From Trichodelitschia bisporula (lineage: Eukaryota > Ascomycota > Dothideomycetes > Phaeotrichales > Phaeotrichaceae), in contig ML996689.1 of the NCBI GenBank assembly GCA_010356995.1, positions 1,757,979 through 1,821,978 of the forward strand: DNA of 64,000 nucleotides. Direction: 5' to 3'. Made by a program: the position numbers and the translations under genes. This document shows positions 39,461 through 60,188 of this stretch, piece by piece. Position 1 is the stretch's first letter. Every line of letters starts with the position of its first letter. The notes under the pieces are model-generated. The model saw only the letters and a list, made by a program, of their open reading frames with translations. It was not told the origin of the DNA and made no database searches.

Positions 39461-39612
39461 CATCAACCTCACCTCTCGTCATCATCCATCAACCTCATCT
39501 CTCATACTCGTACATCAACCTAACACATCAACCTCATCTCTTATCCTCATGCATCAACCTCATCTCTCATCCTCATACATCAACCTCACACATCAACCTC
39601 ATACATCAACGG
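39461..39612 (+). repeat. CATCAACCTCATCTCTCAT pyrimidine-rich repeat leader
   Basis: About six imperfect copies of a 19-27 bp unit (catcaacctcatctctcatc, then variable bases), ending directly before an ATG at 39615. A similar but distinct repeat lies just before the gene at 50381. On the plus strand it is nearly purine-poor, as expected of a transcribed leader. Confidence 0.85.
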
Positions 39613-40539: not shown

Positions 40540-42180
40540 TCTCATCGACTTCTATCTCGAATGATTGACTCTTCCCTGCAACCGTCGACACTGCTTCGTC
40601 AAGATACACCTTTTCCTCGCAGGGTTTTCTGGGAGGCAGTGACTGGACAGACGAGGGCAAGTGCTGGGACCGATCGTTTCTGTATGTAGTTCCCCATTCG
40701 CGCGCGATAAAGACCCATAATCCAGTCTGTTTCAGTCCCAAATTGGTTTTGTCCACTGAGTTGTGAGCCTTTTGCCGCAGATATTTGACAATTTCTTCAA
40801 CCAGACTGCATTTAGCGACCTAACGCCCCAGAACTTTTGCACTTGGCTCGTCTCCTCGAGTTCTCAGAGAAAGTATCAACGGGGAGCAAGAGCTTGAAAG
40901 ACATGAAGCCGGCTTTGAAGGATAAGAGCGAACAAATCATCGATCTTCCTTACTGACCGGCGCCGGACCACGGCGCTGAATCAAAACTAGAGCCGAGTAT
41001 CACCGAAGATGCCCGTTCAAGCCATGAACTATCAGAGTTTAACCTAGGAAAGTCCAGATCTGCCCCGTTCAGCCACAATTAGCGACCAAAATATCCAGCT
41101 TGCCCTCACCCCAGCCTTGTGCGGGGTTCGTTAGTCGTTACCCGGCCGGTCGCATGGGTAGAGTTGGCCAATAATAGCACGCGGGGTCAGGACAGGAGCA
41201 CGCGACGACAATGGTTGATCGACGGCGATGACGGGTTCGCGGGTCAAGATTTGCAATGGGGAGTAAATAGGACGTAAGTTTAATATATGCGGTTGATGTA
41301 CTCTATGCAGTGGTCCGGCTAATAAAAGCTCCTAGAAAATACTCGTCTTACGATGCCTTTTCGTCAAAGCAGAACAAAGGAAGGCTGACGGCAGATCTTA
41401 GCGCACCCTAATGCCGATCGTACTATCTGCAAGCGCAAGCCGCGAAGCTTACCTCGACGGTGCCCAAGAAAGACAGCTGTCAAGCTTCCGCAGTTTGGAT
41501 TCAAGCTCCCCCACTTCGCCGTAAAATCTCACCCGCCCCCGCAGCCGCGCGTAGTCCCCGCCCCCGCATTCCATGCATGAAGTATCCCCGCACGCCACCA
41601 TGTGTCATGGTGGTCATATTCCCCACACGTCGTCCATGTGTGCTGCTTACCGCATCAAATATATCCGAAGGATGGTCCAGGGAGTCGTCCCGCCCCTTCT
41701 TGGGAAGACCTGTAGGTTTCACGGCGGCGGTACAGGAAGAGGTGAAGTCACAGAGTCCGTGTCTCTGCATTTGATATAGAGCGTTGCCGTAACTCCCACC
41801 GCGCGTTGACTGCGGTCGACGAAGGCAGTGCGTGGGAGACCGCGGCCGAGGGATGATCCTCTTACCCTTGGGCCAGTGCTCCACGGTCCATTCTCACTTC
41901 CACCTCGCGACCAGCCGAAGATGCCCACCCCATCACCTCCCCCGCATTCCAGGTACGCGTGGTCAGCCGCACCGTCTGGAATCTGTCCCAGCGCCGAGGC
42001 ACAGTCCGAGGCACAGCGACCCGACCCAGGGGACTGGGAGAAGGAGGGTCAGATCAGTAAACTGATGTGTATAAGAGAGTCTCATCTGATGATAGGAGAA
42101 GAATAACACTGATTGCTGACACTTTTGTCTCTCATCTTCTTAAAAAGGCCGAAACTGCTTGTGAGACTGAGCCGACTTTC

Positions 42181-44367
42181 ATGATGACGAAAGAAGGCGC
42201 ATTGGCCGCCCGCCAGTTCAACTGGCAATGTTACTTCACCTGCTGCGCAGTAGCCATCGGCCAAATTGCCTTCGGGTACCCGGCTTCAATCATTTCCGGT
42301 CCATCACTCCCTCTATCCGCCGCGCAACCCAAACTAATACCCCCTAGTGACCCTCGGAGAGCCCTCCTTCCTCATCTACATGGGCCTAATGGACGCCAAA
42401 ACTGGTAAGCTCACGCACGACGCAAACGGTCTCATCGGCGCCACCTCCGGTGTCTTCCAAGCCGGCGCCACAATAGGCGTGCTCGTAGCTAGCTATATCA
42501 TGGACCGATGGGGCCGGAAGGCGGGTATGGTGTACTGCGCCTTCTTCTCGTTGCTCGGTGGTGCGCTTCTGGCCGGTTCCCGGAATATTGGGATGTTTAT
42601 CGCCGCGCGGTTTTTTGCGGGCATTGGCAGCTGGGGGTTTTTGGCGGTTTGTATGTTGGTTGAGGTGTGGATAATTTGGGTGGAATTGCTGACGGTTGGC
42701 AGCCCCGGTGTACTGCTCGGAGCTGGCTCCGCCGAAGCTTCGGGGGTTCTTTGTGGGGATGAACGGTGTCTGCATTGCATTGGGCTATGCTTTGGCCAGT
42801 TACATGGGAATGGGTACGCTCACTCCTGGGTTTGATCCACGGCTAACAGCTTCAGCGTTTTTCTTCGTCCACTCCGACCAACAATGGCGCGGCCCGCTCG
42901 GAATCGCCCTCGTGTGGCCCTTTGTCATGCTCTTCATTGTGAGTCCGCCATCTGATGGATGCACACATACTGACTCTGCTCAGATCTGTTTTGTCCCCGA
43001 AAGTCCCCGCTGGCTCCTGCTGCAAGGCCGCACAGACAAGGCTCGGGACATCGTTATGCGTCTCCACACCGTGCCGGGCGATGTGGACCAGGAATTTGCA
43101 AGAAGCGAGTTCTACCAAATGCAGAAGCAATGCGAGCTGGATCGCACACTGAATCCGTCATGGGCCGAAATGTTCCGCCGTCCTTCTTACCGCAAGCGTG
43201 TTATCCTCGCCTGTGGTTTTGCGTTCATCGGCCAGTCCACGGCTGTGCTGGTTATTAACAACTATGGGCCGTTGCTCTATGCTAGTTTGGGGTACGATAC
43301 GCATGATCAGCTTGCCTTGGCTTGTGGATGGATTACGGTTGGTGTCATATTCAACGCTGTCGGTGCGAGCTTTATGGACAAAGTAGGAAGACGTCCACTC
43401 ATGATCGCTGGTGTTGTTGGTTGCTGCAGTGAGTCGACGACTTTCTAATGCTCACCTAGTTATCCTCCCTTTCCCAGTATCTTTCGTAATTCTGAACCTC
43501 ACTAACGGCTTCAGTATGCTTGACTATCGAGGCGGCGATGGTGGCGGTCTATGCGAAGGCCGCTACCAACAAGGCTGGACTGTCCATGGGTGTCGCTGCT
43601 TTCTACCTATTCCTTGCAGTCTATTCCATTGGTATAGATGTTGTCGGTGTCGTGTGGTATTCGGAAATGTGAGTGCTTTCCAAGGAGTCCTCAGTTTTCA
43701 GGATGGACCTCCGGATCGCTGCTTACTCCGTGTTGCAGTTTTCCGAATCATATCCGCAGCAAAGGTACGAGCATCTTTCTCTCGGGCACCCGTAAACGAT
43801 CTTGTCTGCTGCTGCTGCTTTTTGGATGATTTTGGGGAAGGAAGAGCCGTCGTCACCGCTCCAAGTGGCTTTTCCCGCTGTGTGGATCCCCGGCATGGGC
43901 CGCCCCGCTCCCGCCCCCACAGCTCCACTTTTCCACGTCCCACCCAGAGAGCTAACGTGTTTCAGGAATTTGCCTTGCCGTTGCGACACTCTCATTGACA
44001 GACCTCGTGTACCTTCAAGCCACCACCACCGCATTCGCCAACATCGGGTGGAAATTCTATTTGGTCCGACCCTTGTCTCCTTCCTGCTTGGGACCTCGGC
44101 TAACTCGCCTAGGTCTTTATCGTCATCACGGCTCTCGGAAGCGTGTGGGCTTTCTTCGTACTGCCGGAGACGAAGGGTATTCCGCTCGAAGAGCTTGCGC
44201 AGATATTCGGCGACACTGATGACATTATGGTGTATGCTGCTGATATCCATGTTGATGCTACCACTCATGAGCTCGTGGTGCAGGAGCATGGGAAGGAGGG
44301 TATACGGCATATTGCGACGGGGGAGAAGAAAGTTGTTCCTGCAGAGCATGTTGAGACTGCTGTTTAG
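42181..44367 (+). CDS. MFS sugar transporter (SP family)
   Basis: Nine exons: 42181-42298, 42348-42650, 42703-42813, 42856-42938, 42984-43428, 43515-43668, 43739-43764, 43966-44063 and 44113-44367. They encode 530 residues. Introns range from 42 to 201 bp, and every junction keeps frame. Sugar-porter marks in order are: FNWQCYFTCCAVAIGQIAFGYPASII (helix 1), DRWGRKAG in loop 2-3, ASYMGMAFFF, PESPRWLLLQGR after helix 6, DKVGRRPLM in loop 8-9 and LPETKGIPLEEL at the end of helix 12. These belong to fungal hexose or alpha-glucoside permeases; the substrate cannot be read. Exon 7 is only 26 nt. Some donors are weak (GTCCAT, GTCCGA). An earlier in-frame Met at 42067 is possible, but homologues start close to the helix 1 motif. 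Confidence 0.85.
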
Positions 44368-44879
44368 GTCTGGAGTCGGGGACAGTGAGGGTTTTCATGC
44401 CACGTGCGGTCATTACGGCGGAGGTCTGCGGCGGGGGGATAGGCCAAAGGGCGGCGGGTACGAGATGATGGAATGGCATGGCGCCGGTAATGGTGGGAAG
44501 CAGTTATGCCTAAACAATGTGAATGGCCGCCTGAGAGGGCTGGTCTTCAGTTGCCTGCCCAAGGAGGGACGGCTGCGTCGCTTTCTGGCCCCGGTCAGTC
44601 TCATTGAACACAATGCACGAATAATATTTTCCACCGGCTTGATGACGAGGCCCAGAGATCCCAGAATGGCACGTGTCACATTTGGAGAGACTTGCAAGAG
44701 CAGAGAGCCAATGGCATTTGCTTGGAGTTCGATACAGAGCGCCCCTTTCCGATGAATAACCACCACGCATGACCCAGTGTGATTGACTAGTCAAAGACCA
44801 TGATAGACCGATCCCCAGACGCCCTATGCCGTACCATTCCCAGACCCGATAACACTTTGACCTGTTTCCCAGAGAGCAC
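44368..44879. other. Convergent intergenic region
   Basis: About 510 bp between the sugar transporter stop and the stop of the minus-strand ORF. Nothing recognised; overlapping ORFs are shadows. Confidence 0.35.
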
Positions 44880-45728
44880 TCATTTGAAGAAGTCCTTGCC
44901 CACTTTGTGCTCTTCATCTTTTGCGTCGCCGTTGATATGTACGTTCTTGACAAGAACAAGTTGACCGGGCTGGGGGTTCTCGATCTGGTGAGTTGCTGAA
45001 AGGAGCGCTAAACCCCGCAGACACTCGACGAAGCCGACCATGAACCTCAGCGGATAGTTCAAAAAGTCCTGCTCAGGGGTCAGTAAATGTCTGCTCCGAA
45101 ATGGATCGAGGGATTTCATCGTGGCCAAGGAATTGCTTACCGACTTGACTGTTCGCACGCGATTTACCATCGCCTGCTCTTTGGTAACCTCTATCCAGCG
45201 CGGCATAATGAGGTAGGCTCCCGGATTGGTGATGTGGTATTGGAGGGTTAGGACTCGCAGGCTCAGCGAGTCGGAGGAAAATGCTTCGCGGAAAATGATT
45301 TTTTGAGGAGCGCCGGAGAGAGTGTTAGGTTTTGTGTGTAAGTGCCAGGTTTTGTGGAGAAAGTTTTGCACGGAGAAGGACACTGTGGGTGAGCAGGGTG
45401 AATGAATTGAGATCCGCCGAGCCGCAGTTGCACGGCCGCGCCGAGGCCTGATTTCTCCACGCATGTTGTCGAGGTAACTAACCGTATAGTATATAGAATA
45501 TAAGGATGCATGCCATCTCTTATACCGGCTTCGATCCGCCCATTCAGGTATACCGGGCGAGATGAGCCTGAGTTCCGCTTCATCGACACAAAGTGGGGGC
45601 TGAGCCGACCGGTTGTGACGGAGACTAAAGCTATCCTGGGCCGCAAATTCGCGTTGGTATTGACAAAATTCTTGGAAGCTCATCGGGTCGAAAAGCGAAG
45701 CGGAGAACTTGACATGGCGCCCGCTCAT
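44880..45728 (-). CDS. Hypothetical protein
   Basis: An open frame of 282 codons with coding-like composition in its second half (e.g. ITNPGAYLIMPRWIEVTKEQA). A canonical intron is possible at 45140-45069: GTAAGC, TTTACTGAC branch, GAGCAG. It is 72 nt and keeps frame, so the protein may be 258 residues, joining TVKS to DFLNYPLRFMVGF. The N-terminal part is less convincing and might contain another intron beginning near 45480. No domain, signal peptide or membrane segment recognised. Confidence 0.45.
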   Translation of the reverse strand: MSGRHVKFSASLFDPMSFQEFCQYQREFAAQDSFSLRHNRSAQPPLCVDEAELRLISPGIPEWADRSRYKRWHASLYSIYYTVSYLDNMRGEIRPRRGRATAARRISIHSPCSPTVSFSVQNFLHKTWHLHTKPNTLSGAPQKIIFREAFSSDSLSLRVLTLQYHITNPGAYLIMPRWIEVTKEQAMVNRVRTVKSVSNSLATMKSLDPFRSRHLLTPEQDFLNYPLRFMVGFVECLRGLALLSATHQIENPQPGQLVLVKNVHINGDAKDEEHKVGKDFFK

Positions 45729-46524
45729 CCTAGTCTTTCACATCCGGATGAGCGATGTAAAATAAGTGAAGTTCACCGCTGCTCTTCTTCAGGTCGTTCC
45801 CCTTCGATCGTGGTTCTGACACCTGCACCTCCTCTTCCACTTCATCTTCTTTATAACGGGTGAGAACAAGTGCATCCGCGCGGTCGAAACACTTGATGTA
45901 AGCCGAATTATGAGATAAAAAAAGCCGGAGCGCATATAACTAGCTCCCGCCGCTAAGTCCGCATGGGACCGGTAGCCACGCATATACGTTGTACTGTGGT
46001 AGTCAAGTGTACCCTGTCCCGTTGTGTTAGATATCGATGTATTCAGTCATATGGAAGGGATTGGCCATAGTTACCATAACTGGCATATCGGGCGACTGCT
46101 AGGAGAGAGCACGGGTACCATTGTCAGGCTCATTGATCGTGGAGTCATGGAGTCATCTCTGCTTTGTCTTTGTTTTCACTTACGTGCTTCAAATTTTTAC
46201 AGCTAGCCATGCCCTGCTCCATTCGTGCTGGGCCTGTGCGCCTGTAAGTGGCTGCTGCAAATGGAAGAGAAGCTTGGACTTTACTTCTGCCACATAGCAT
46301 TTGCCGGCATTCAATGTCATGTGCAAAGGATTCCAGAGACCGCCTTCCTCCTTTGTAGAGCCATTCGCAAAGACGTAGACTCTCAGCGAAGGCGCTTGGC
46401 ACTCGCTTAACTTAACCCAAACTTTCTCCTTCTCAGTTTCTCCTCCATCTCCCACCAACCCCTTTTCCCACACTCACCCATTCTCAAACCAAGATTCATT
46501 TCACCCCCAATTACATACCTCACG
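45729..46524. other. Intergenic region and leader of the first orphan gene
   Basis: About 800 bp without a supported gene. The last 90 bases are pyrimidine-rich (CTCCATCTCCCACC-like) and precede the ATG at 46525, resembling the leaders of the genes at 39615 and 50381. Confidence 0.4.
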
Positions 46525-48133
46525 ATGTCTGACGACCCCTGGTCCCCATTTACCGACAGCAGTACGGAGTCGGTTACTCGCACTGAAGAGCAGATGGCGA
46601 ACATAGCTGAGCCTGTCATAAATGCCGACGCTACTGACAGCGTCCCTGAGTCTGTTACTGGCACTGATGATCACATGGCCACCACCGACAACGCCTCTGG
46701 GCCGTCTACCGACTCTGAGGGGGCTACCGAAGCTCCCAAGCCGACAGTTATGGGAGACGATGCGGTCCATTCGGTTACAAATGGCGTTCAGAAGATGGCG
46801 CTCACCTGTAACGGCAAGGCTCCCATCGATCTGAACGCCAACGGTGGCCGCTCGGTTCCCGGAGTCAAGTACGGCAAGAAGGAAGCCAATGAAGCCGGTA
46901 AGATCCCCTCACAAAGCCGCATCGTTGCGCATCTCAGCTTCAGCACCATATTGACCAAAACCAGGATACGCTGGAAAGAAGGGCAAACATTGGACTGACC
47001 ATGAACGGGTTCAAAAGAAGAACGAGTGGCGCTTCGAGCGTCACAACAACCTCGTGTCGTGCGCGGCACAGGTCTTTGCTGAGCTTGGAAAGCTCTCCTC
47101 GATTGTCAGTACTGCGACGGCGCAGGTGGCTGCGGTGGCGGCTCTGCAAGGCAATCCGGACTTCACGAATCAGGTCGAAGATGCTGTGATGAATGGAAAT
47201 GCCAATCTCGAGGATCTGGTTAGCGGCGATCTCGCTATCTTGCAGAACTCGTACCTTGCCGCTCTGATCAACAAGACTACGGCTGCCATTGCAACCATCG
47301 GCCTGGCTACTGCGACTGCCCAGGTTGATCTCGGCCCTACTATTGCTAAGTGTTTCGAATACCCGGGCCCGCACGTTGACCCCGACCTGTACAACCCCAA
47401 CACTTTCAACCCCGGCCACCGGACCAAATACCACCTTCCGAAGGAACAGCGCCATGTCCAACCCAATCAGTGGCACAAGAAACAGTCTACTGACAAGAAC
47501 TACGGGACAGGAAAGCAGGCGTACTCACAGAAACCCACGGCTCAGGATAGCGAGGTCTGGATCTATGCCAACGACCCGAGTGCCGCTACCATCAACGATG
47601 TCAAGCCTAGTTCTAGTGAGATTTGGATCGTTGCCAACGACCCGAGTGCCCCTACCATCAACGAGGTCAAGCCTAGGTTGGTCAAGAAACACGGGACCGG
47701 AAAGCAGGCGCACTTACAGAAACCCACGGCCTGGAGTGGTGAGGTCCACAGCGTTGCCAACGGCGCGGGTGCCGCTACCATTAACGATGTCAAGCCTAGG
47801 CTGAGCAAGAAGGCCTATTATAAGGCTAAGCGCGCGGACAAGAAAAAGCAGGCGCGTGCCTCGAGCAGCGCTTCTGCCGCCAACAATGTCGGTGCCCCGT
47901 CGGCGCCGACCACTGCGAAGGACACTGCCACGGCGAAGACCATAGCTTACACTCCCGGAGGCAACAGCTGGGCTGAGATGGCTGAGCTTTCTGATGAGCT
48001 TGCTGAAAAGACTCAGAATCTCGAGACGCCTGTTTCTGACAGCTCTTTTGCTGGCTCTGAGAAGTCGTCCACCCCCACTGTTGAGACGTCCCAGACTGTC
48101 GAGCAGGGCGGCGCTGCTGTGGCGAGCCAGTAG
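46525..48133 (+). CDS. Orphan repeat-containing protein (cluster gene 1)
   Basis: Exons 46525-46897 and 46965-48133 encode 513 residues. The 67 bp intron (GTAAGA ... ACCAG) restores NEAG|YAGKKGKHWTDHERVQKKNEW. There is an acidic Thr/Ser-rich N-terminus. A helical Ala-rich middle (LSSIVSTATAQVAAVAALQG...) follows. Then come three diverged repeats of the form GTGKQA-x-QKPTA...EVWIYANDPSAATINDVKP (coding bases about 47503-47808), then a basic segment SKKAYYKAKRADKKKQ. A Ser/Thr-rich tail contains SWAEMAELSDELAEKT. No signal peptide or membrane segment, so intracellular, possibly nuclear. I know no family with this combination. The intron and the long clean frame make a real gene very likely; function is unknown. 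Confidence 0.72.
47503..47808 (+). repeat. Three diverged coding repeats inside cluster gene 1
   Basis: Copies start near 47503, 47608 and 47692; the middle copy lacks the GTGKQA part. The shared core is EVWIYANDPSAATINDVKP-like at protein level and gccaacgacccgagtgcc-like at DNA level. Copies share the core closely, so the amplification is relatively recent. Confidence 0.85.
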
Positions 48134-49157
48134 GCGGCTGATCCTTCGGAAGTCTTCCTTGCTAGTACGGAAATGAGTGCCTGGGCAGGTGGCACGTTGA
48201 AGTGTACGGAATTGGCGGGGGTCCTGCCAGTTCGGACATCTTGATGGCGCTGCATGTCTGGTGTTGGTCTATTCCTGAACGCTAACACGTGACAATGTAC
48301 TTTGCGTGGATAAGGGCGACGATTTGCGGGACGCACGGGGTTCGGTATTCGTACATGAAATTTCGAGTGTTTAGTCAGATAAAGCCTTTGTCCCCATGTT
48401 TTCTGCATCGTGAGAATGCTAAGCATGTGCTGTTTAGACATGAATGTACCTTAGCAACCAAGGATTCCGAGCATCCCGCTCCCAGCAGCCAACGACATTC
48501 CCAAGCAGTCCGCATGCTCTTACTAGAGCAAGAAGGTGTAAAACACAATGACCTCAGTGCCTCTAGTAATGGTGGGCGGGCAGAGTGTTAAAGTTGAGAG
48601 GTGATGGGATGAGATGACGTTAGAGTGCCCAAATGGTCATCGCACTCTTACTCAGCAAATGTCTTGGCAAGAGACGGACACAACCTTTTTTCCGGGGATG
48701 CGCCATCATTCCTTGGCAAGGCTGGATCTTGGCACCACGTCTTCCGGTCTGCCTCGCAACCAGCTGGGCGGGCCAAACATCGTTAACCCAGAAAAGACAT
48801 GCAATCTCAAGCTGAGACGGCAAGCATGCGCTGGATCAGGCGGAGATTGATATGACTAAAAGGCAAATACAGGCGTCGAAGAAGTCAATCGAGCTCAAGT
48901 GAGGTTGGAAGCGCAGAAGTTGAATGTTTAGTAGAGGGCTCGTTACGAATTATAACAGACGACATACTGCACCTGCCTATTTAGGAATCCATTCAACAAC
49001 TGCAAAAATGCCAGTGAATGCAAACGCGAGCGCTAGGACGAACTTAACCCCACCAACATCTAGGAGAACTTCAAACCTGTCACCACCGGCATCCACACTG
49101 ATCCTCCAAATTTCCATTCATACATAGCCAGCGACTCGAAGAATTTTTTTCCAAGAT
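48134..49157. other. Intergenic region between cluster genes 1 and 2
   Basis: About 1 kb. A short ORF from 49008 (MPVNANASART...) is too weak to call. No repeat or domain recognised. Confidence 0.35.
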
Positions 49158-49968
49158 TTGGACTTCAATGGAGAAGGTGAGGACGACGACTCCCGGCCGC
49201 GAGAATTCATGCTAATAGTGGAGCAGCAGACGAACATCTCGAAGACCATCAAGGAGCTGGCGCTCCTGGCTGCAGAAGACAGCATGGCGACACCTTCGAA
49301 GTTCGACAAGCAGCCAAAGAGCTGGGCCGAGGTCGTGAAGTCAATACCTCAGATGTTAAACCAGCCAGAGGCCTCCAGCGCCAACTTCCGAGTCCGACGT
49401 TCGACCTGCTTCGGAGTGGCAGTCCGGCTTTGACTGGGCCGAGGATGTGGAGCAAGCCGCTGCAGCCGGTCTCCTGCCAGGTATAATGCGTGCGGACAAT
49501 TTCGTCAAGAAATGGAGGTCCGATTTTGACTGGGCCGAAGACGTTGAGGCGGCTGAGGCTGCGGGTCTCGTATCAACCTTGTCTGTCCACAATGCGGCTC
49601 TGCGACTCCGGCTGCCAACTCCGAGAATCTGGGCAACGCAAAGGGAGAAGATGAGCCTGAGGATGCTGGGAAGATCAACCCCATTCAGAAAGACTAGCAT
49701 TACATCGAAGCCAGACATCATAAAATTCGGCAAGATGTCTCGTAGGTCGTCGACACTGGCGAATCTAATTTGCTTATACGTTTGGTCAGCTTCACGTCAC
49801 AAAGAAAGAGAAGAAAGGTTGGCCAGTCTGGATCAGAGGAGGATATCTATCTTCTTCTACTTTTCTTATGCCATAACCTTTCATTTCGTATTGTCCACTG
49901 TATGCTCTGCCGTGATATTTGTGCAAAGTCAGCTGTCGACCCGCCCAGCAGCCATGAGACTAGGTTGA
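49158..49968 (+). CDS. Possible orphan gene with a repeated FDWAEDVE module (cluster gene 2)
   Basis: Two frames, 49158-49433 and 49361-49968, carry coding-like text that continues across a frame change. Joining them needs either a frameshift (then a pseudogene) or a 34 nt intron: GTGAAG at 49335 to CCAG at 49368, restoring SWAEV|RPPAPTSESD. The second frame holds two copies of a WRSDFDWAEDVEAAEAAG-like module about 75 bases apart. No family recognised. The true start may lie upstream of 49158, since the frame enters from a stop close by (about 49140). Treat the exact structure as unresolved. Confidence 0.35.
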
Positions 49969-50160
49969 TGCCCTCTTATCCCCAAAGGTGACACGCCCTC
50001 ATGTTCAAAATCCTTACGAGGTATGAATCTTCACGATTCTTCCGTTACAGCTTGGCATGCCCGGTAAGCAAACACACAGCTAGCAGAGACATTCACCCGC
50101 CCTTGCCACTTGCCTACGCCTACCCATTTTGCATTGCCTTCCAAAACATACCTCCGCCTG
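49969..50160. other. Intergenic region between cluster genes 2 and 3
   Basis: About 190 bp leading into the repeat leader of cluster gene 3; nothing else recognised. Confidence 0.3.
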
Positions 50161-50342
50161 CGATTCGCACCTCCGTCTCCCACCTACACCTTCGTCTCCC
50201 ACCAACATCGCCATCTCTCACCAACATCTCCATCTCTCACCCACATCTCCATCTCCTACCCACATCTCTATCTACCACCCACATCTCTATCTCCCACCCA
50301 CATCTCAATCTCCCATCCAAACTTTCGTCTCCCACCCACCAC
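50161..50342 (+). repeat. CCACATCTCCATCTCCCA pyrimidine-rich repeat leader
   Basis: About ten imperfect copies of an 18 bp unit (cccacatctccatctccc and variants) in front of the ATG at 50381. The open frame through it reads HLHLSPTSPSPTH-like peptide, which is a by-product of the repeat. Probably the 5' leader of cluster gene 3. Confidence 0.9.
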
Positions 50343-50380
50343 TTCAATCCGCTCAGGTTCTTGACTGGCAATCGCCCACC

Positions 50381-51082
50381 ATGACTCTAAAGGAGGACAA
50401 CATCAACACTGTGGAAACCGCCATGACAACCACACAGGGCCCTGCCACCACCGTCGCTTCGATAAACGAAGTCGCCAAGAGTTTCAGCGCGACCATGGGA
50501 GCCGTGTGCCATAACCTCAGCGGCTACAAGCCGGTCAACAAGGCGTACGTGAAGGAAGCTCTCAAGCCGACAATCAAGCTTGCCATTTCGTCTCTCAAAC
50601 CGCGTCCCACGCCCGTCTTTCTTAGAATGTATACCGAAGATGACGAGAAGAAGTCTGGCAAAATTCTAGCTGACAATCACTACTATACGGATAATATAGT
50701 CCAATCAGGCGATGTTATAAACTCTAAGCATGTCGGCGGCGTTGCTAACAAGGCTGCTCCCAGTGTCGACAACAAGAAGGCCGTTATGATTCAGGACTAC
50801 GCTGCCGTCGAAATGATGAGGGCGGCGGCAAAGACGGAATACGGCCTGATCGACAGGAAGATATTTGCAGAGAGGGCGAAGAAGAAGCGTGATCAGGCCA
50901 AGGGCAAAGTGGTCAAGCGCTGCGACCCCGAGCGGTGGCATATGCGCCGCAACCCAAAGTACAAGCGTGACACGACTGTGGCGGCTACGGAGGCTGCTCA
51001 GTCGACTGCGTCTACGGAGCCCACCACGGAGGCCGCAGAAGCAAACGAAAAGTTCGCGAGCGATCTCATGCAACTTAATTAG
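50381..51082 (+). CDS. Orphan basic protein (cluster gene 3)
   Basis: A single frame of 233 codons from MTLKEDNIN. Hydrophilic, Lys/Ala/Thr-rich, with no signal peptide or membrane segment. The middle holds YVKEALKPTIKLAISSLKPRPTPVFLRMY. A long predicted helix with DYAAVEMMRAAAKTEYGLIDRKIFAERAKKKRDQAKGK follows, then DPERWHMRRNPKYKRD. An Ala/Thr/Glu tail ends it. Basic helix followed by an acidic tail is also seen in the genes at 52455 and 55426. The frame remains open upstream through the leader repeat, so the start is chosen at the first ATG after the repeat. No family known to me. Confidence 0.6.
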   Translation: MTLKEDNINTVETAMTTTQGPATTVASINEVAKSFSATMGAVCHNLSGYKPVNKAYVKEALKPTIKLAISSLKPRPTPVFLRMYTEDDEKKSGKILADNHYYTDNIVQSGDVINSKHVGGVANKAAPSVDNKKAVMIQDYAAVEMMRAAAKTEYGLIDRKIFAERAKKKRDQAKGKVVKRCDPERWHMRRNPKYKRDTTVAATEAAQSTASTEPTTEAAEANEKFASDLMQLN

Positions 51083-51363
51083 TAAGTGACTCTTGAAACT
51101 GTTGAATTGGGCGATGACTTACGGAAATATTCATGTTGTTGAGCACGGAAATGAAGTTGAGGAGTACAGGAGCTGGTCGGCCCTAGACCGGCAGATTTGG
51201 GGTTGGCTTGATGGTTTGCCACCTCGTCGCAAGGCTGCTCAATCTTCCACTTGAGCGAGGTTATGTGTTGGGGCGGTGGAGTATGTAATTCAGGTCTGCG
51301 GGTTTGATGGTTGAGATGTCTGGCATCGGCCTTTCAAGTCAACTGCACGTGGAGTTTAGCGAG

Positions 51364-51530
51364 ATATGATATCCGTCCCATTGCCTCAGGGACTTACTGG
51401 ATGTGATATACGTCCCATTGCTCCAGAGCCTTGTTGGATGCAATATCCCTCCCATTGCTCCCGAATTCTCGCCGAATATGCTATCCGTCCGAATGTCCAG
51501 GATTCTTGCCCAATATGATATATAAATTCT
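51364..51530. repeat. Diverged array with 37-38 bp period, array 1 (five units)
   Basis: Units begin at 51364, 51401, 51438, 51476 and 51513, with period 37, 37, 38, 37. The shared core is atatgatatccgtcccattg, with substitutions in every copy. Spacing is preserved far better than sequence. Confidence 0.88.
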
Positions 51531-51954
51531 ATTTAATGTCCAATGCGGCTCCCGAGGGACCATGTAGACAGCCTATAGCAAAACTATGTTACAAAATGGG
51601 CATCTAAGCTAAAAGAAAACCCAGCGTGGGGAAAAATTTCTTTGGGGAGGGGCTCTTCGGGCACGTCCCAAAGCATATCTGGTGAGGTGTTGGTGGGTTG
51701 TTGTTGTTGATCTGGTACTACCCGAATATTAGACTCTGTGAGGTCGGTATTCACTTCCTCCTTCCTCCTTCCCGGGGCCATCTCCTGGAGTTCGGGGCTC
51801 TCTGACGTGCCTTCGATCGAGCTCCGGCAGCGTGCGCAGGTATTCCGAACGCGGCGTTGTCCGCATCGAGATGCCGTACGGGTAACTTGGGCTATGAAGC
51901 TGGCAGAGGGTGAGGCATGTGGTGCACGCATGGTGTGCTCAATTGAGCTGCCGA

Positions 51955-52085
51955 ATATGATATGCGTCCCATTGCCCAGGAATCTTGCCGGATGTGATAT
52001 CCCTCCTATTGCTTTAGTCTCATGTCGAACGTGATGTCCGCCCCATCGCCCCGTGGTCTTACTGAAAAGTGACATCTGCCCAACA
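51955..52085. repeat. Diverged array with 37-38 bp period, array 2 (four units)
   Basis: Units begin at 51955, 51992, 52029 and 52067. It is followed to about 52160 by sequence (ccaacaccctccactc...) that recurs after array 3. It lies about 370-500 bp upstream of the ATG at 52455. Confidence 0.88.
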
Positions 52086-52454
52086 CCCTCCACTCTCGTT
52101 GAGAGGATATATCGCATCCCATCCCCCTCCGGATGCCCCCAACGCCGCGCTGAGGCCACCGACGCACGACTATCGTGACGAACGTACCTTCCCCCGAGGA
52201 AGCAAACCGTATCGATGAGCCCGCACAGTCACCACACTGCGTGAAGGGTACGGAGGCACGATAGTCCGTGACCCAAGCGTTGCTCGTGAGGTTGTAACCA
52301 TATTGCAGTGCTGGCGCAGTCCATCTTTCCACCAAGTCCTCAATTCCTCAGTCCCCGAAGCCCCTCAATTCCCCAAAGTCCCCGAAGCCTCATATCTTCG
52401 AACGCCTTCAAGCAATCCAGCGACGAGAAAATCAGAGATCCCACCGCAGCCAAA

Positions 52455-52763
52455 ATGAAGATCACTGTCGTCGAGCACCTCTACGCCATGGACACAGAGC
52501 GCGAAGTTGGACGCCTTGCACGCTCTACCAAGAAAAACGCCTTGCGCCATAAGATGCAGCAAGACATCAACGACTTGGCCCAGGACCTGATCGACGATCA
52601 GGAGGCCGTCATCGCGGCGCGCGAGGCTGCTGAAGAGGAAGTGGGCTTCAACTACAATGCGGTAAGTCACCCTAACGAACGACGACGTAAGACGTGTGCT
52701 GACAGCCGATAGCCGTTCGCTTATCGACTCAAGATTTCCAGCAAAGGTGGCGAGATGGTCTAG
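52455..52763 (+). CDS. Small orphan protein, duplicated copy 1 (cluster gene 4)
   Basis: Exons 52455-52661 and 52713-52763 give 85 residues. The intron has GTAAGT, a GTGCTGAC branch and two acceptors, CAG at 52705 and TAG at 52712. Use of the first gives a different short tail (about 97 residues in all), so the C-terminus is uncertain. The body is a charged helix: TKKNALRHKMQQDINDLAQDLIDDQEAVIAAREAAEEE. It is the upstream member of a tandem duplication; the partner begins at 53617 or 53770. The intron is about 85% alike between the two. The first exon is only weakly alike, with IDDQEA..AA.E versus IEDEQA..AA.E. No family known. Confidence 0.5.
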
Positions 52764-53255
52764 GATGTTGGGATGCGGTACTTGGCATGTGATATGATGT
52801 GTCGACAAATCTAAAGCGCTCCAGCGTTTTGTTTCTCGTACATCTCCCTGAATCAAGCACTCTTTTTGGTCTCCTCAATTTCTTTTCTCAATCTGCGCGG
52901 CTTGACGTGACTCGTGCTTTCATATATTGACTCGATCGCCCGGCGTGATATCCGAAGGCCATCGCTGGCGACGGCGGCGTATTATCGAAAGGCAGCATCC
53001 TGCTGCCCAAAGTATACCGTCTCGGTTCCAATAGCGCCGATTTCGTAAAGCCAGATGTCGTAAAGCCAGATTTCGTAAATCCAGACCTAGTGGCACATGT
53101 ATCTGCACGTAAGGCATATACCAGCCCCACGAACCCGGAAGCCCCATCTCTTAGAGAGAACACAAGTGCGGGCCGGTGCGTGCGGGCCGGTGCGTACGGG
53201 GCTTCGCGGGGCTCTCGGATGCGGCGTTGCCTGCGCTCCGATGCTGATGTGCCGA

Positions 53256-53345
53256 ATATGATATCCGTCCCATTTCTTTCGATTCTTGCCGAATATGGTG
53301 CCCGCCCAATCGCCCTGTGCTTTTGCTGACACCTGATATATGCCC
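53256..53345. repeat. Diverged array with 37-38 bp period, array 3 (three units)
   Basis: Units begin at 53256, 53293 and 53331. It is the counterpart of array 2 in the duplicated copy, and the following sequence to about 53420 also matches. Confidence 0.85.
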
Positions 53346-53566
53346 CAACACCCTCCATACCCATTGAGGGTAAGATATCACGTCTCATCACCCCCGAGAA
53401 TGCCCCCAAGCCGCGTTGACGCCGCGGAAACATGAATACTCGTGAGGAAAAAGCCGCGCTCGCGGCGGCAAACCTACCACGAAGCCCGCATGCCTTCCGC
53501 ATTTGAGTGCACGGAATACCGGAATTCCGCCCACAAAACGCTGCCCCCTTGGCGTCAACACTGTGC

Positions 53567-53574
53567 TATAAAAG
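53567..53574 (+). promoter_or_regulatory. TATA box of duplicated copy 2
   Basis: TATAAAAG lies 50 bp before the in-frame ATG at 53617 and about 200 bp before the ATG at 53770, in a suitable position for a start of transcription near 53600. Confidence 0.6.
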
Positions 53575-53616
53575 CCTGTACAGTTGTTCCCCAGCGCATT
53601 CTCTGCATCCACACGC

Positions 53617-54061
53617 ATGTCCATCAACCTGAAAATCTCCAATCTCGACCTTCTTTCAAGCTCCGTGAAACTCAACAACCCGAACAGGTAAGCAACCTCG
53701 TTGACGGCTTTAGAGCCCCCCCACGCCCAAGCAAGTCCGCAGACCAAGCTGCTAACAACCACCAGCAACATGGCCCCAGAGGGGTCATCCATGCAGACCA
53801 CGGGGGTCTCTCGCCCTCGTGCGAAGGCTGCGACTCGGCGTATTCTCATCAAGGCGGAGGCTGCGATGAAAGTCAACAAGATTGAGGACGAGCAAGCTGC
53901 GGCTGCGGCTGCTGAAACAACTGGTCAGGAGTGGGATGGGACACTGCCGGTAAGTCATCCACGAACGACGACGTAGGAGGTGTGCTAACAGCCACTAGCC
54001 GCTGAAGCTTCGGATCTATGTTGGTGGTCCAGACCGCGTTCAGTGGACCATCGGGGTTTGA
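53617..54061 (+). CDS. Small orphan protein, duplicated copy 2 (cluster gene 5)
   Basis: Exons 53617-53687, 53766-53949 and 53999-54061 would encode 105 residues, starting MSINLKISNLDLL. Intron 1 (78 bp; GTAAGC, GCTAAC, CCAG) keeps frame into SNMAPEGSS. The Met at 53770 is an alternative start (80 residues) if the first exon is untranslated. Intron 2 (GTAAGT, GTGCTAAC, with CAG at 53991 or TAG at 53998) matches the intron of copy 1. The body is an Ala/Lys/Glu-rich helix (VNKIEDEQAAAAAAETTGQEWDG). The last exon reads PLKLRIYVGGPDRVQWTIGV. No family known; no signal peptide. Confidence 0.5.
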
Positions 54062-54483
54062 AGATCCTCTTTGCTGCGAACATCATGAACTATTTTGAAG
54101 CGCTCTGGCGCAGATAGTTCTACGACATGGTTCACAATCAAGCTCCTGACCGGCTGTCCTGACCGGCTCTCTTATTCTGCGTGGCTTCCGTAACCTGTGC
54201 GGCTTGACATGACACTTCCTTTCGTATATGTATACGTCCGCCCGGCGTGATATCGTAAGTCCATCGCCGGCGACGGCGACATGTTGTCGAAAGGTGGCAT
54301 CCCGCAGCCCAAAGTATACAGTCTTAGTCCCGATGGCCTCAGTTTCGTAAATACCAGTCCCAGTGGCACATGCATCTACATGCCAGATATATACCCCAGG
54401 AACCCACAAGCCCCATCTCTTATATAGCACACAAGCCTTCACAAAAGACTCTCGTACCTCAAGTATAGCTCGCCGGCAGTGTG

Positions 54484-54525
54484 CCGCATGAGTCAAGTCT
54501 TGATCGTAGACTTCGACTCATGCGG
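54484..54525. repeat. Inverted repeat carrying TGAGTCA
   Basis: Arm ccgcatgagtcaagtc at 54484-54499 pairs with gacttcgactcatgcgg at 54509-54525, one base being unpaired. TGAGTCA, the Gcn4/AP-1 consensus, lies in the left arm (54489-54495). It may be a regulatory site or a transcribed hairpin. Confidence 0.8.
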
Positions 54526-54529
54526 AAGA

Positions 54530-54770
54530 GTACGATGTAGCATCAACGAAGAAGCCGGCGAAGCATGCGGCGCGCGGTGCAGCTCGTGCTGCCCTCGAGG
54601 CGCTGGTGTGTAAAGCTCTTGACGCGGAGCTGGCAGTCATTCAGGACGCCCGATATGAGTCCGCCGTCGACACTGAGTACAAAGCAGCCATGGCATTCAG
54701 AACAAAGCCACCGTCGATGACTCTGCTGAAGTCGCCCTTGCGCGACGTGCTTCTCAGATTTAGGCGACGA
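54530..54770 (+). pseudogene. Probable decayed relative of the orphan cluster genes
   Basis: From 54531 the plus strand reads STKKPAKHAARGAARAALEALV then KALDAELAVIQDARYESAVDTEY, without an ATG at its head. After about 54695 the coding-like text continues in another frame (NKATVDDSAEVALARRASQI, then a stop), so a frameshift is likely near 54697. The composition (STKK start, Ala/Arg helix, acidic end) resembles the genes at 52455 and 55426. It could also be an exon of an unresolved gene. Confidence 0.35.
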
Positions 54771-55425
54771 GCCTAGACGGAGGGCGACTGAGGCCACTGC
54801 ACTGAGTGCAGCCCGAGATCCAGGCACGCTGAAGATCAACAATCTTCGAGAGTCTGCCATCATTTTGAGACACCATCTTCAACCGCTGGTTTCACTGGTC
54901 ACAAAGCCGGATGCCGGCATGGTTGTCCGAGGGGGTGAAGCGGGAAAGTAATCAAAAACTCTGCCGGACAAAGACCATCTATAGATGAAAGAGAGCTGTT
55001 CTCCCCGTCCTCACGGCCTAACCTGTGGGCGGAGTTTGCATCCGAAGCTTCGCACACGTAGATGTCCGCGAAGATTTTACTTCGAAACTGGACGGCCATG
55101 GTGCTGAACCTGCACATGAAGCTGTCTTCTCGAATCCCCTGGAACATGTCGTCCAGGTCTCGTCCAGGCGGTGGCCAAGCAACGAGCTCGCAGTTAGCGA
55201 TCATAACCGGAAGTACGGGGCCGTAGACGGTCCTCTCCTGGCCGCGTCCGCACTTTGCAGAGTCGCCAAAAAGTCTCCAGGAGATAGGGGGCTCGAGGAC
55301 GCCTGCAACCACCCCAGGACCCTGCTCTGCAAACCCCACCAGCATCGTTGCCAACAAACGCCCCATCAGCAATACTCCCAGCGACACCAAAGACACCCGC
55401 GACCGCGTCACAAAGGGAAAAAAAG

Positions 55426-55980
55426 ATGAAGCAGTCCTCGATGGCCCCGGAGACGACGGAAGTGGAAGAGAAGACCTCGACGATGACGAAGACGAAGATC
55501 ACCGACAAAATCTCTGGCCCGAAGAAGCAGCCGTCTAGAGCATTCTACAAGAAGGCTAAGTCCACCAAGCGCCACGATCATCATACGGCGCGCGCAGACG
55601 CCAAAATGATGGCCCGCAACTCGATTGATGACGAGAATGATATTCTCGAGGATATTCGTCAGGACTTCGAGGAAGCGGGGGCGGGGGATGCGGTCGTCGC
55701 TGCTGCACAAGCTGAGCTCTATGGCATGAATGACTCTCGTTCCGACACCGTCGCCGAAGCCGGTGATAAAGCTGCTACCGAAGCTGTCGACAAGGATGTT
55801 GCTAAAGCTGGTGACGAGCCTTCTGCCGAAGCTGCTTTCAAGGCTACTGTCGAAGCTGGTAATGAAGCCGCTACCATCATGGGCGGCAAAGACGAAGGCA
55901 ATGCCGGCCTCGATGCTAGAGCCAACGTTGTGACCAGCACCGAGAACATGGACAACGAAGCTACCGGCCATGACAACTAG
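55426..55980 (+). CDS. Orphan charged protein (cluster gene 6)
   Basis: A single frame of 184 codons from MKQSSMAPETTEVEEK; the second Met (55441) begins MAPE, as does the second possible start of cluster gene 5. A basic segment, KKQPSRAFYKKAKSTKRHDHH, is followed by a helix, ARADAKMMARNSIDDENDILEDIRQDFEEAG. An acidic Ala/Glu/Asp tail follows, made of loose repeats of EAGDKAATEAVDKDVAKAGDE. No signal peptide or membrane segment. It shares the order basic patch, IDDE-type helix, acidic Ala-rich tail with the genes at 50381 and 52455. No family known. Confidence 0.55.
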   Translation: MKQSSMAPETTEVEEKTSTMTKTKITDKISGPKKQPSRAFYKKAKSTKRHDHHTARADAKMMARNSIDDENDILEDIRQDFEEAGAGDAVVAAAQAELYGMNDSRSDTVAEAGDKAATEAVDKDVAKAGDEPSAEAAFKATVEAGNEAATIMGGKDEGNAGLDARANVVTSTENMDNEATGHDN

Positions 55981-56491
55981 GTATGTGACACGGGCGGAAA
56001 AATAGTGAACTCTTCGTTAACAGTCGCCATGAGTAGGCACGCAGCTCAAACCCACTTCTGAACGTCCTCGACATCCGACCCGTCAAGGAAAGCTCGGGTT
56101 CGAAGGACAAGATGGCGGGATCAAGGATGGAGGCGGAAGTGCGATGCCCATAGTTTGAAGCAATGAACATCATGCCCTGAACCCTGCCGTTTACAGCTTG
56201 TCGTGAGCCCTCCTGGGCAGCATGTAGGCGTCCATGGTGATTTGCCGAAACCATCATCATCGGTGGTGAAGTTCTCCAAAGTAGCTTTCGTCCGAAGCCA
56301 TTGGAGCAAACTTCTGTCGTCCCAAGTCCTTTCAGATGCTCTAGTTCGGAACCGCATAATCGTGACTCCGCGCAGCGAAGTAGGTCCTCAACTCGCGCCG
56401 TCGCAAAAATCAAACCAGCATTCCACCTTTTTCTATCTGCCACATCCTTTTCAACCACACCACCAACTCGAAAAACAGGACTCGCTCCAGG
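55981..56491. other. Intergenic region, cluster genes 6 to 7
   Basis: About 510 bp. The last 80 bases (ttttctatctgccacatcc...) look like a leader. The minus-strand ORF (56812-55961) overlaps the next gene and is not called. Confidence 0.35.
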
Positions 56492-58177
56492 ATGGCTCGC
56501 AAGAAGCGCGCTAAGGGCGGGAAGAAGAAGAGTGGCGTTTCCGACGCCAATGAGAGTGCCCCTGACCACAGCAGCAACAGCCAGAACGGCGGCAGGGATA
56601 CCGGGGCCAGTCATGATGCCTCCAGCAGCAACAACAACCACCACAATGCCGGCATCACTAACCCAACGGTGCCCACCCTGAGTTGGGAGCTTGTGAAGGC
56701 CTACTGCATCGCAGCATTCCCCCCCGAACACGGCGACTCCGAAGGTATGGCTCGCGGGATATACACGGGCGTCCATATGTATCTCGCGTGTTATCCGGAT
56801 GCGGCGGGGCATGTGGAGGAGCTAGAATCCGAAATGCGTTCCATCGTAAATTCCGGTTGGAAAATGGGGTCAGCTGGTAACGCGAAGACGAAGAGTCTTG
56901 CTCAAGTTCTTTTTGCGAAACTCATGGGTATCATGGGCATCCAGGTTAAGGACGCGACAACTGGTGAGAACCTCGTTGAAGATGGCAGAATTGCGGACCC
57001 AAAGGATCTCGCGGCTCTCTGGCAAGCCGTTGCGAACGAAGCGGCGAGTGGTGTCGATACCGGCCATGAAGTGCGCGCCGCAACTCCGGAAAACCCCCTG
57101 AGTCCCGCCGAAAACGCCTCCAATGATGATCAAGCGTCGCCGACTACGGACGACCAGCATCGCGCGGACATCATCGCTCAACATCGCGCGGACATCATCG
57201 CTCAAAATCGCGCGCCCATCATCCTTCAACACCGTCTCGCTACCAATCTGGGAGCCAATGCCCCAACCAGCCACCAACGTCATGTTGTGGACGGCGAAGT
57301 TGTCCATGTCCCTATCAAGGACCGTCGTATTCGTCTTGACTTCCTTAATGATTGTGAGCTGCCCCGTCACTGGGATCGGCCGGGTTCAGGTACGATATAT
57401 GGTCAACACACGACGTACTACGTCGTCGACCCGGGCACTGGTCTTCCTGTTCTACCGAATTCTCGGATGCCGGTCGATCGAGTGGCTCGCCGCGCTAGCA
57501 TCCAGGAGGAAAGTGGGTTCGGGGGCGTCGAACGTCCAATTGCCGATGGAGAAGAGCGTGCCGATGTTGAAGTCCACGGTGAAGAGCTCGCTCGCCCTGG
57601 TGTTGAGTTTTCGGATGTTGAAGAGAGCACTGCAAGCCTCGGAGCCACCCTTGACAACACCCTTGACAACATATTAGCTCGCGCTGCTGAATTTGCGGCA
57701 ATAGTAACCCAACTCCATACGGCTAGGAGTTCCGAGAGTGATGGGGAAGAATCGGCGTCCGTGGCTCACCACTCAGCTCCAGGTGGTGGGGTTACTGACG
57801 AGACAACCGAGAACGTGATTCCCTTTGACGACACATGGGCTCCAATTATCGAGTCCGTAGAAACACAAGGCCGCCCCTCCAGCAGTTCCGAGCGTGCTGT
57901 GGAAGAATCAGCGTCTGCGGCTCATCCATCAGCTCCAGGCGTTGGAGTTGCTGACGAGGAGACCACCGAGAACGCGATGACCTTTGACGACGAATGGGCT
58001 TACATTGTCGAGTCCGTGGAAACCCAAGACCCCCCTGTCGGCAGTTTCGAACGCGTTGAGGCACCGTCCGTGTCTGTCGCCTACACCCCTATGCCAGGAG
58101 GGTGGGTTAGCGACGGGGACACTACTGAGAGCGAGGATTGGGAGGCCATGGGCCCCACTCGGACTGGGACTTGGTAA
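56492..58177 (+). CDS. Large orphan protein with C-terminal repeats (cluster gene 7)
   Basis: A single frame of 561 codons. It has a basic N-terminus (MARKKRAKGGKKKSG) like a nuclear signal, then a Ser/Asn/His-rich linker. Next is a helical segment of possible globular character, about residues 65-180 (SWELVKAYCIAAFPPEHGD..., CYPDAAGHVEELESEM, LAQVLFAKLMGIMGIQVKD). Three copies of RADIIAQ(H/N) follow (57161-57232). A mixed region contains RRIRLDFLNDCELPRHWDRP, then VDPGTGLPVLPNSRMP. The C-terminal 150 residues are two and a half repeats of about 50 residues with ETTEN..FDD.WA.I.ESVETQ. No known family. The length and clean frame make it the firmest gene of the cluster. Confidence 0.75.
   Translation: MARKKRAKGGKKKSGVSDANESAPDHSSNSQNGGRDTGASHDASSSNNNHHNAGITNPTVPTLSWELVKAYCIAAFPPEHGDSEGMARGIYTGVHMYLACYPDAAGHVEELESEMRSIVNSGWKMGSAGNAKTKSLAQVLFAKLMGIMGIQVKDATTGENLVEDGRIADPKDLAALWQAVANEAASGVDTGHEVRAATPENPLSPAENASNDDQASPTTDDQHRADIIAQHRADIIAQNRAPIILQHRLATNLGANAPTSHQRHVVDGEVVHVPIKDRRIRLDFLNDCELPRHWDRPGSGTIYGQHTTYYVVDPGTGLPVLPNSRMPVDRVARRASIQEESGFGGVERPIADGEERADVEVHGEELARPGVEFSDVEESTASLGATLDNTLDNILARAAEFAAIVTQLHTARSSESDGEESASVAHHSAPGGGVTDETTENVIPFDDTWAPIIESVETQGRPSSSSERAVEESASAAHPSAPGVGVADEETTENAMTFDDEWAYIVESVETQDPPVGSFERVEAPSVSVAYTPMPGGWVSDGDTTESEDWEAMGPTRTGTW
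57161..57232 (+). repeat. 24 bp coding tandem repeat, three copies
   Basis: The unit cgcgcggacatcatcgctca plus four variable bases is repeated three times in frame within cluster gene 7. The third copy has diverged. Confidence 0.9.
57750..58150 (+). repeat. Coding repeats of about 156 bp, two and a half copies
   Basis: Copies start near 57750, 57905 and 58064. Each encodes an ESASVAH.SAPG..V.DE start followed by FDD.WA.I.ESVETQ. The third is shorter and ends at the C-terminus of cluster gene 7. Confidence 0.88.
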
Positions 58178-60188
58178 AGGTTGGTGATGGGTCCGGAAGC
58201 GATGAGCCGGGTGGCTAACCTTTGCTAGGACATGACTGCAATGGGGTTCGAATGTCCGGGGTCCGGGCGTACAACCGATACAGAAAGGGGGGGAAAGCTG
58301 AAATGAGGGCGACTGAGTGAATAGTTAAGAAGGGCGCTTTGTGTTGTTCTTTGACCGTTCGACAGATGAGATCTGAATTCAGATGCTTCCGTCCATGGCT
58401 GGCAATTGACGTGATGACTTTGACAGAGTTAGCAGAAAGCATGAGAGTTGAATACAGTCAACACGCAACAAGGAAGGTCAACGAGATGACAAATCATGAG
58501 TAGGATTGAGTACGAGATGCTCGACGGCAGAGTATGAGATGCTCGACGGCAGCGTACAAGACGTCAAACCCGAATGGAGCTCACAGACGACAGATCCGGC
58601 CACCTGAATCGCTAACCCCGAGACCCCCCAACTCCAAGCTCACATCACGAGTTCCGATCAGCGCCAAAGACGGACGGCACGGAGAATGATGTCCTTGGTG
58701 CCAAAGCGACAGCCACAGAGTCTAATAACTGCACCATTAAGACCACGGATGGGCGTCGCGCTTAGGCCAGTGCTGGTTGCCGGAGACACCAAGTCAACAG
58801 CTGCGTCGCCAAGTGCACGAAATTAAGAGCAGCAGCGACTCTGAGACGCAGAAAAACGCACCACCCGCTCTCAAATCCCATCGACCGAAATCGGATATTC
58901 CCATCAAGCATCGGCATTGCCGCCACCACTGGGCGCGGCTGACAGCTCGGTCGCCTTCTGGAACCCTTCCTGAAGCGTGCGGGTGCAAAACGTGAAACAC
59001 AAGGGGATGGGTCGCATTGGCTTTTCATCTACTCGAAGCGTTTGCACCGCGAAGCCGGTCGGCCGTTGGAGATGATGGTGTGCGCAGCATGTAGGTGAAG
59101 GTGCTGCCGTGCCAAGTGGCCGCGATGGACTCCAGGGCGGGTATCATCGACGTGCCAATGTGTGGGGAAATGGAGGGATACGAGAGGCTTCAATGGCAAA
59201 TCACTAACATGGCTGCTACCGATCAGAACGGTGGGCGTGGGAAAAGGTGGAGGTGCATCACTGCGAGTCGTCGGACGTTTGAGGAAGACTCCTGGGCCGG
59301 CCCATTGTTTTTCCAGGGCCGCGACCACAACACCAAGGCCAACACCAAGACGAACTGCATCACGGGAATCGGCAGGGGGCCATCGGCACAGACCATCGCC
59401 CACCGCTTCTTGCAGCCGAGGCGGGCCGTGTGCTCTGCGACGAGAAAGAGTTTCCTTATGCCTTGTCTATAGTGTTGTTCCTACCCGTGCTCTCTCAGCA
59501 AGGTGCCGAATTCCGAGAACGTGACAGCCGACCCAGCGATCCAACTCAGCTCGTCAGAGTGCCAGGACTCGAGTAAGGCTCAGTTCAGTTACACTTTTGG
59601 CCCTGGCTCCTTCATTTTTCCTCTAGAGTTTGGCTGTCCATTACTCTCACCTGTCAACCGCTAAGCTCAGTTCCTTGCCACAACCATCTCCAGCTAACCC
59701 AAGGCTCAGCCATACACCCACCAAGCACCACAGTGTATCAGGTCACCTAACCCTCAAATGTCCACCGCAGACTCACATATACAGCGGCAAACTTCTAAAT
59801 CGTAAAACGTGCAATCCATATTAACTCTCCCCGATTTTGGCTTCCCCATTCGCCGCCCCTGCCAGGCACCGTCCCAGCGCGCTGGTCGATCACGCACTCC
59901 CTTCCTACCGCCACCCATCGCGCGGCGGGATATGGCTTGTGCTTCTCCCCCCGTCCCATGCCATCCGTTGCACCCCGCAATATGGCCTGTGCAGCCTCGC
60001 CCCTCCACGCCCGGAAGCTGCGCAACCGGCGACCAGGAACCGAAGTCCAGAAACCTATCTCCCATCTCCAGCGCTGTATATAACACCATGCCCTCCCTCC
60101 CTCTCTCCACATCCAGTCAAGCATCCCATTTAATCTTTCGTTTCTCTTACCCTCGTTACCAACCACATTCCATTCCATTCCATCCACC
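58178..60188. other. Intergenic region of 2 kb
   Basis: No supported gene. A 22 bp unit (gagatgctcgacggcag...) is repeated twice at 58514-58557. A minus-strand ORF of 124 codons (59403-59029) has no recognisable content. The last 100 bases hold the peroxidase promoter. Confidence 0.4.
60077..60083 (+). promoter_or_regulatory. TATA box of the peroxidase gene
   Basis: TATATAA lies 112 bp upstream of the ATG, followed by a CT-rich leader (ccctccctccctctctcc), the usual layout for a strongly regulated secreted-enzyme gene. Confidence 0.6.

Follow-up and report, generated by a model that had tools for sequence, protein, structure and literature searches.

A tandem gene pair of Trichodelitschia bisporula with a last intron better conserved than its exons

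Two tandem units and their genes

We analyzed a window of 64,000 nucleotides (C3:1757979-1821978) from the genome of Trichodelitschia bisporula, a dothideomycete of the order Phaeotrichales whose genome comprises 25.65 Mb in 30 contigs. Two short genes, here called gene 1 and gene 2, lie there in tandem on the forward strand, as do all features of the two units described below, and each closes with a short intron followed by a tail exon. This last intron aligns well between the two genes, whereas the exons on either side of it do not.

The exon before the intron of gene 1 (52455-52661) has 69 codons when counted from the ATG chosen in a preliminary description of this DNA. It is not annotated, and its phase 0 frame stays open up to the donor of a 51-nt GT-TAG intron (52662-52712) and continues in phase 0 through a tail exon (52713-52763) encoding PFAYRLKISSKGGEMV and a stop codon. 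Gene 2 begins with a coding exon (53617-53687; MSINLK...), a first intron (53688-53765), and a second coding exon (53766-53949), followed by a 49-nt last intron (53950-53998) and a tail exon (53999-54061) encoding PLKLRIYVGGPDRVQWTIGV and a stop codon. Joining the three gene 2 exons reproduces exactly the annotated 105-residue hypothetical protein EJ06DRAFT_519679, which implies the first intron and indicates that the annotators likewise removed the interval 53950-53998. The 180-nt first exon previously proposed for gene 2 therefore rests on an internal ATG, since the annotated protein starts at 53617 and has a further intron upstream of the conserved one.

For gene 1 we found no database protein (zero of three candidates at E up to 10), and a six-sequence profile searched for relatives in other species returned one of 4642 candidates at E up to 1, which was gene 2 itself. 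None of the ten proteins given to Pfam matched above cut-off, and a single-sequence structure prediction for the annotated gene 2 protein had a mean predicted local distance difference test score (pLDDT) of 40, which is unusable. Read from their translations, both products lack cysteine, unlike typical cysteine-rich toxins.

Region-by-region global alignment of the two units, with scores expressed as z against 200 shuffles, bears out the tandem duplication, with landmarks recurring at offsets of 1264 bp (5' block), 1288 bp (intron donors), and 1302 bp (3' block). The 5' blocks, noncoding spacer at 51986-52182 in unit 1 and 53250-53449 in unit 2, match in 149 of 201 columns (74%, z 20.5), and the 3' blocks, spacer at 52890-53166 and 54192-54435, match in 198 of 278 (71%, z 27.1), as expected from the earlier statement that flanks align over 200 bp or more. 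The last introns match in 43 of 51 columns (84%, z 12.6) with exactly the six substitutions and single two-base gap first counted. The first exons, 207 and 180 nt long from the starts first chosen, had been called barely alignable and are so, with 106 of 231 columns matching (46%, compared with 45% when shuffled; z 1.5), and the second exons fare no better (22 of 80 columns, or 28%, compared with 40% when shuffled; z 0.5). Exon identity thus lies below that of the intron, as the preliminary description had it, and the difference between the intron and exon 1 is clear (Fisher p 3.6e-7). The leader is 35% identical over 272 columns or 49% over 334, depending on the gene 2 start chosen (shuffled 36% and 45%; z 1.0 and 1.7). 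Past the stop codons, the first 126-130 nt are 49% identical over 146 columns (shuffled 43%; z 3.1). Because these leader and near 3' sequences are nearly or wholly unalignable too, the loss is not confined to exons. The pattern of the pair is a mosaic, in which the intron and two outer blocks align and the sequence between them, coding or not, is largely lost.

The spacers themselves contain repeated material. The 3' spacer block has a third copy, though a partial one, on another contig at C2:395246-395369 (L008, L077), with 80% identity over 125 nt, between two other copies of the intron described in the next section, and a 69-nt motif with GATATCCGTCCCATTGC-like steps occurs at six places in spacers of window 51353-53313 (≈61-74% identity), several of them 37 nt apart. 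Elsewhere in the window, internal tandem repeats of 78-90% identity occur at 39461-39602, 47494-47811, and 57725-58061, the latter two inside open reading frames (ORFs) at 47189-48133 and 56492-58177, neither of which matched Pfam. On the minus strand, 37204-38310 holds a long frame containing a run of N.

The intron family across the genome

Searches of the T. bisporula genome by DNA, pattern, profile, and exon located 19 copies of the last intron. This is a lower bound, as 16 weak pattern matches with three mismatches were left unchecked. Besides those in genes 1 and 2, there are two copies each (a and b) at loci L002, L005, and L046 and one each at L004, L013, L018, L020, L027, L041, L050, L051, L054, L069, and L075. 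All 10 matches to one pattern are known copies, and another pattern gave 33 matches, comprising 15 known copies, two checked non-members, and the 16 unchecked, for which the control gave 17; one further search added one new copy, L069. Exon similarity ties 18 of the 19 copies to one gene family, and L054 is tied to it by its intron only. Judged by eye, 11 copies (gene 2, L004, L005b, L013, L018, L020, L027, L041, L051, L069, and L075) precede a tail that plainly belongs to the type AWKLEVVLGADGV, EWKLEIIFIPEGVEVVW, or GWKLIINFRPQGVEFTW, five have a looser likeness (gene 1, whose tail resembles the L005a tail PHAYHLKI, L005a itself, L002a, L046a, and L050), and three (L002b, L046b, and L054) have no such tail, with L002b and L046b linked to the family through the exon before the intron. 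Most of the 18 copies aligned (all but L046b) carry the pattern GT..CTRAC..TAG, so that donor, branch site, and acceptor of a spliceosomal intron are all present.

Relationships among the exons cut across the tandem arrangement. The exon before the intron of gene 1 is weakly related to that of L002b, whereas the second coding exon of gene 2 has relatives at L046b, L013, L075, and, weakly, L002b. In both exons compared, gene 2 is nearer to L013, which lies on another contig, than to gene 1 (126 of 173 aligned positions shared with L013, and 52 of 60 in the tail exon), which would place genes 1 and 2 in different subfamilies, and the introns of gene 2 and L013 have a two-base gap in common. Gene 2 and L013 share only ≈270 nt, nearly all of it coding part and intron, without flanks. 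Closeness to L046b and L075 is also seen in the 3' half of the first intron of gene 2, so conservation may extend beyond the last intron.

These relationships bear on one of two explanations put forward at the outset, exon replacement, in which gene conversion or recombination would swap coding cassettes or exon segments among subfamilies while spacers and intron stay in place. The mosaic of the tandem pair, with flanks at 71-74% around unalignable leader, exons, and near 3' sequence, is what such exchange would leave, as is a gene 2-L013 likeness that stops short of the flanks. Moreover, gene 2 departs from L013, L046b, and L075 together at nine consecutive informative sites forming one exon block (shuffling p 0.0012), although this test was chosen after seeing the alignment and a runs test gives only p 0.07. 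Exchange would also need to have ended at each border of a 51-nt intron, or to have happened twice, and alone it leaves the family-wide conservation of the intron unexplained. As the whole account we think it improbable, though not negligible; exchange of exon segments may nonetheless add to the account based on constraint that we develop below.

Several features of individual loci stood out. In L051 (1469-1522) the acceptor TAG reads TCG, phase 0 of the intron runs without a stop directly into the tail WVLELVISADGVQVVWWN, and a CAG three bases downstream could serve as the acceptor. A role of the intron as a coding tail when retained was considered and rejected, as divergence at codon positions 1, 2, and 3 is 0.23, 0.35, and 0.26 outside the splice signals and most copies have an earlier phase 0 stop. 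Beside both L005 intron copies lie close matches to a piece of the gene 1 leader (52291-52342; 90% of 52 nt) and to a piece (55402-55444; 91% of 43 nt) of an ORF at 55348-55980; from this likeness, the ORF, a neighbor of genes 1 and 2, may be related.

Family loci are also rich in short TATA runs, with TATATA occurring 94 times in 80,498 nt of 16 loci (including the weak match L021) compared with six times in 48,228 nt of 14 controls, comprising 12 chance-match loci and two arbitrary regions. The rich loci include window 42001-60000, L077, L078, and L079, and two of the 16 (L075 and L071) have no site or one. The pair L069 and L075 loses similarity near TATA runs. Such runs do not mark seams of similarity in general: of 127 similarity ends, 6, 15, and 22 fall within 6, 12, and 20 nt of TATA compared with 7.8, 14.1, and 21.6 at random, and 4, 5, and 6 lie as close to TATATA or ATATAT compared with 2.2, 4.1, and 6.6. 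Repeat-induced point mutation is unsupported as their source (TpA/ApT 0.68 in family loci and 0.65 in controls), and so is their reading as inserted footprints, since at most of the sites the aligned relatives listed have substituted bases.

Rates of change in intron and exons

Mean intron identity is 73.5% over the 136 pairs of 17 copies, a set that omits L046b, in which the 3' half of the intron is lost, and L075, which was found later. Neighboring 50-nt blocks are 43-49% identical, against a background of 43% for pairs of 50-nt stretches drawn at random from 40-59 kb of the window, and removing the donor, branch site, and acceptor lowers intron identity only to 68.5%. In the first eight codons of the tail exon, compared in the 11 of 19 copies whose tail is in phase 0 without gaps (55 non-independent pairs), the proportion of synonymous differences (pS) is 0.695 and that of nonsynonymous differences (pN) 0.390, whereas the intron differs by 0.194 and its middle by 0.259. 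For exon 1, the ratio of nonsynonymous to synonymous divergence (dN/dS) lies between 0.43 (gene 1 with L002b) and 0.70 in the six pairs tried, four of which involve the pseudogene-like, stop-bearing L013 or L075, the codon alignments of L075 being unreliable owing to its broken frame. In all five pairs compared, the intron has changed less than the synonymous sites of exon 1 (p 0.021 to 2e-6); the cleanest of these pairs are gene 2 with L013 (p 0.008) and with L046b (p 0.005).

Because synonymous sites are more diverged than the intron, these data suggest that the intron is slow, not that the exons are positively selected. The other explanation offered at the outset, diversifying selection acting on exons in the manner of toxin or immune gene families, drew its appeal from the tandem pair, in which exons 1 and 2 are no closer than shuffled sequence and the intron is closer. 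It is not supported: dN/dS is below 1 in each of the six exon 1 pairs tried, pS is above pN in the tail, replacement change is not in excess, leader and near 3' sequence are lost equally, and neither product has the cysteines of a cysteine-framed toxin. We regard it as very improbable.

Another reading is a mobile intron, namely an introner-like element that recently spread into old genes or was homogenized between them. Introner-like elements are known from Dothideomycetes, according to PMC4457414, and here similarity stops near the intron borders while exon synonymous sites approach saturation. The 18 copies tied to one gene family nevertheless occupy the same place before the tail, and intron distances agree in part with those of exon 2 DNA (Mantel r 0.24, p 0.0097) and of exon 1 (r 0.23, p 0.027) in 15 of the 19 copies, as expected when an intron and its gene are inherited together; the gap common to gene 2 and L013 is of a piece with this. 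A mobile or homogenized intron therefore seems a far-fetched explanation.

The account to which we give about even credence is that genes 1 and 2 are tandem neighbors drawn from two subfamilies, that the orphan family to which both belong is old, dispersed, and in partial decay, and that its last intron is under constraint. Purifying selection would hold the intron sequence in those members that stay functional, most simply through help with splicing or expression of these genes, while the Ala/Glu-rich exon before it, being loosely constrained, would gain substitutions, insertions and deletions, and perhaps swapped segments. The similar outer flanks would be spacer common to a tandem array, and the exons would look older than the flanks if coding parts separated earlier than spacers or if they were exchanged later. 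In a stronger version, the conserved functional element of the family would be the 51-nt intron itself, acting as a sequence-specific switch of splicing or expression, and selection would hold it with much the same force as replacement sites in the tail motif, while the coding exons around it are replaceable and turn over; this version strikes us as possible but rather doubtful.

A number of observations weigh against constraint on the intron. Our tests revealed no mechanism for it: besides the absence of a codon rhythm noted above, a fold prediction across 18 intron copies gave no conserved pairs, the 11 copies taken with exon ends gave five weak pairs only (-1.44 kcal/mol), and Rfam returned no match at E up to 1 within window 51000-55500. 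Stop codons in the exons of several copies (e.g., L002a, L013, and L075) and the lack of a recognizable exon before the intron in L005a and L069 are odd if selection keeps the intron, and an annotated protein is known for gene 2 only. The pS figures are near saturation and rest on few sites, intron distances show no significant agreement with those of the exon 2 protein (r 0.11, p 0.20, 15 copies), and in the two closest pairs the intron has changed as much as the tail exon (7/49 and 8/60 for gene 2 with L013, and 6/51 and 9/60 for L069 with L075). In the tandem pair, the intron is not significantly above the two flank blocks (Fisher p 0.093). The initial claim that exons vary more than introns stands within the pair and across the family, and is qualified by this comparison and by the equal loss of leader and near 3' sequence. 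In addition, it was through their introns that 14 of the 19 copies came to be found or used, which builds part of the contrast in.

This last point, together with the many copies that carry stops and the equal change in the closest pairs, suits a reading in which exons and introns decay alike, the intron seems conserved since copies were gathered by it, and the tandem pair is a chance mosaic. Yet that pair was picked in the preliminary description before the family was known. The search of the genome for the exon that it had called for gave, with the gene 2 exon, four non-self matches (E 5.8e-13, 2.2e-10, 0.0017, and 0.42), all of which carry the intron, although L046b keeps only its 5' part, and the L002b exon found one, L071 (E 2.4e-4), without an intron copy. 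The intron is accordingly present in four of five relatives found via exons alone. Given also that intron change falls below exon 1 synonymous change in every pair compared, we judge search bias an unlikely explanation, on a level with exon replacement.

Introns better conserved than exons are readily read as positive selection on exons, and here, judged against synonymous sites, it is the intron that is anomalous. If constraint on the intron is the correct account, the family would provide a small and testable case in which paralogues retain a short spliceosomal intron although their coding sequences have drifted beyond DNA alignment.

Comparison with known systems

The contrast between similar introns and divergent exons has counterparts in other gene families. 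Viperid three-finger toxin genes undergo accelerated segment switch in exons and are reported (PMC2474615) to have paralogue introns that are over 85% similar where present and exon segments that are often distinctly different. The highly similar introns here (84% between genes 1 and 2 and 73.5% on average) recall that arrangement; unlike those cysteine-framed venom proteins, however, the T. bisporula products lack cysteine; their family is scattered and in partial decay, and exchange of segments is indicated by one post hoc test. For conotoxins, PMC3862624 reports that members of a superfamily have conserved introns and a variable mature-peptide exon, with positive selection at some exon sites. 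The intron and exon pattern is alike in T. bisporula, but dN/dS is below 1. The introner-like elements of Dothideomycetes are similar short spliceosomal introns at many genome places, as described in PMC4457414; the copies here resemble them in this respect, and differ in being 19 diverged sequences of which 18 are tied to one family. Lastly, common descent of the RNase-like candidate effectors of powdery mildews, whose protein similarity has eroded, was inferred from conserved intron position, according to PMC6759760. Those effectors keep the position of an intron, whereas the T. bisporula family, in which we found no effector feature, keeps its sequence. The T. bisporula family has neither an excess of replacement change nor a cysteine frame, and its striking feature is that the sequence of the intron has been conserved.
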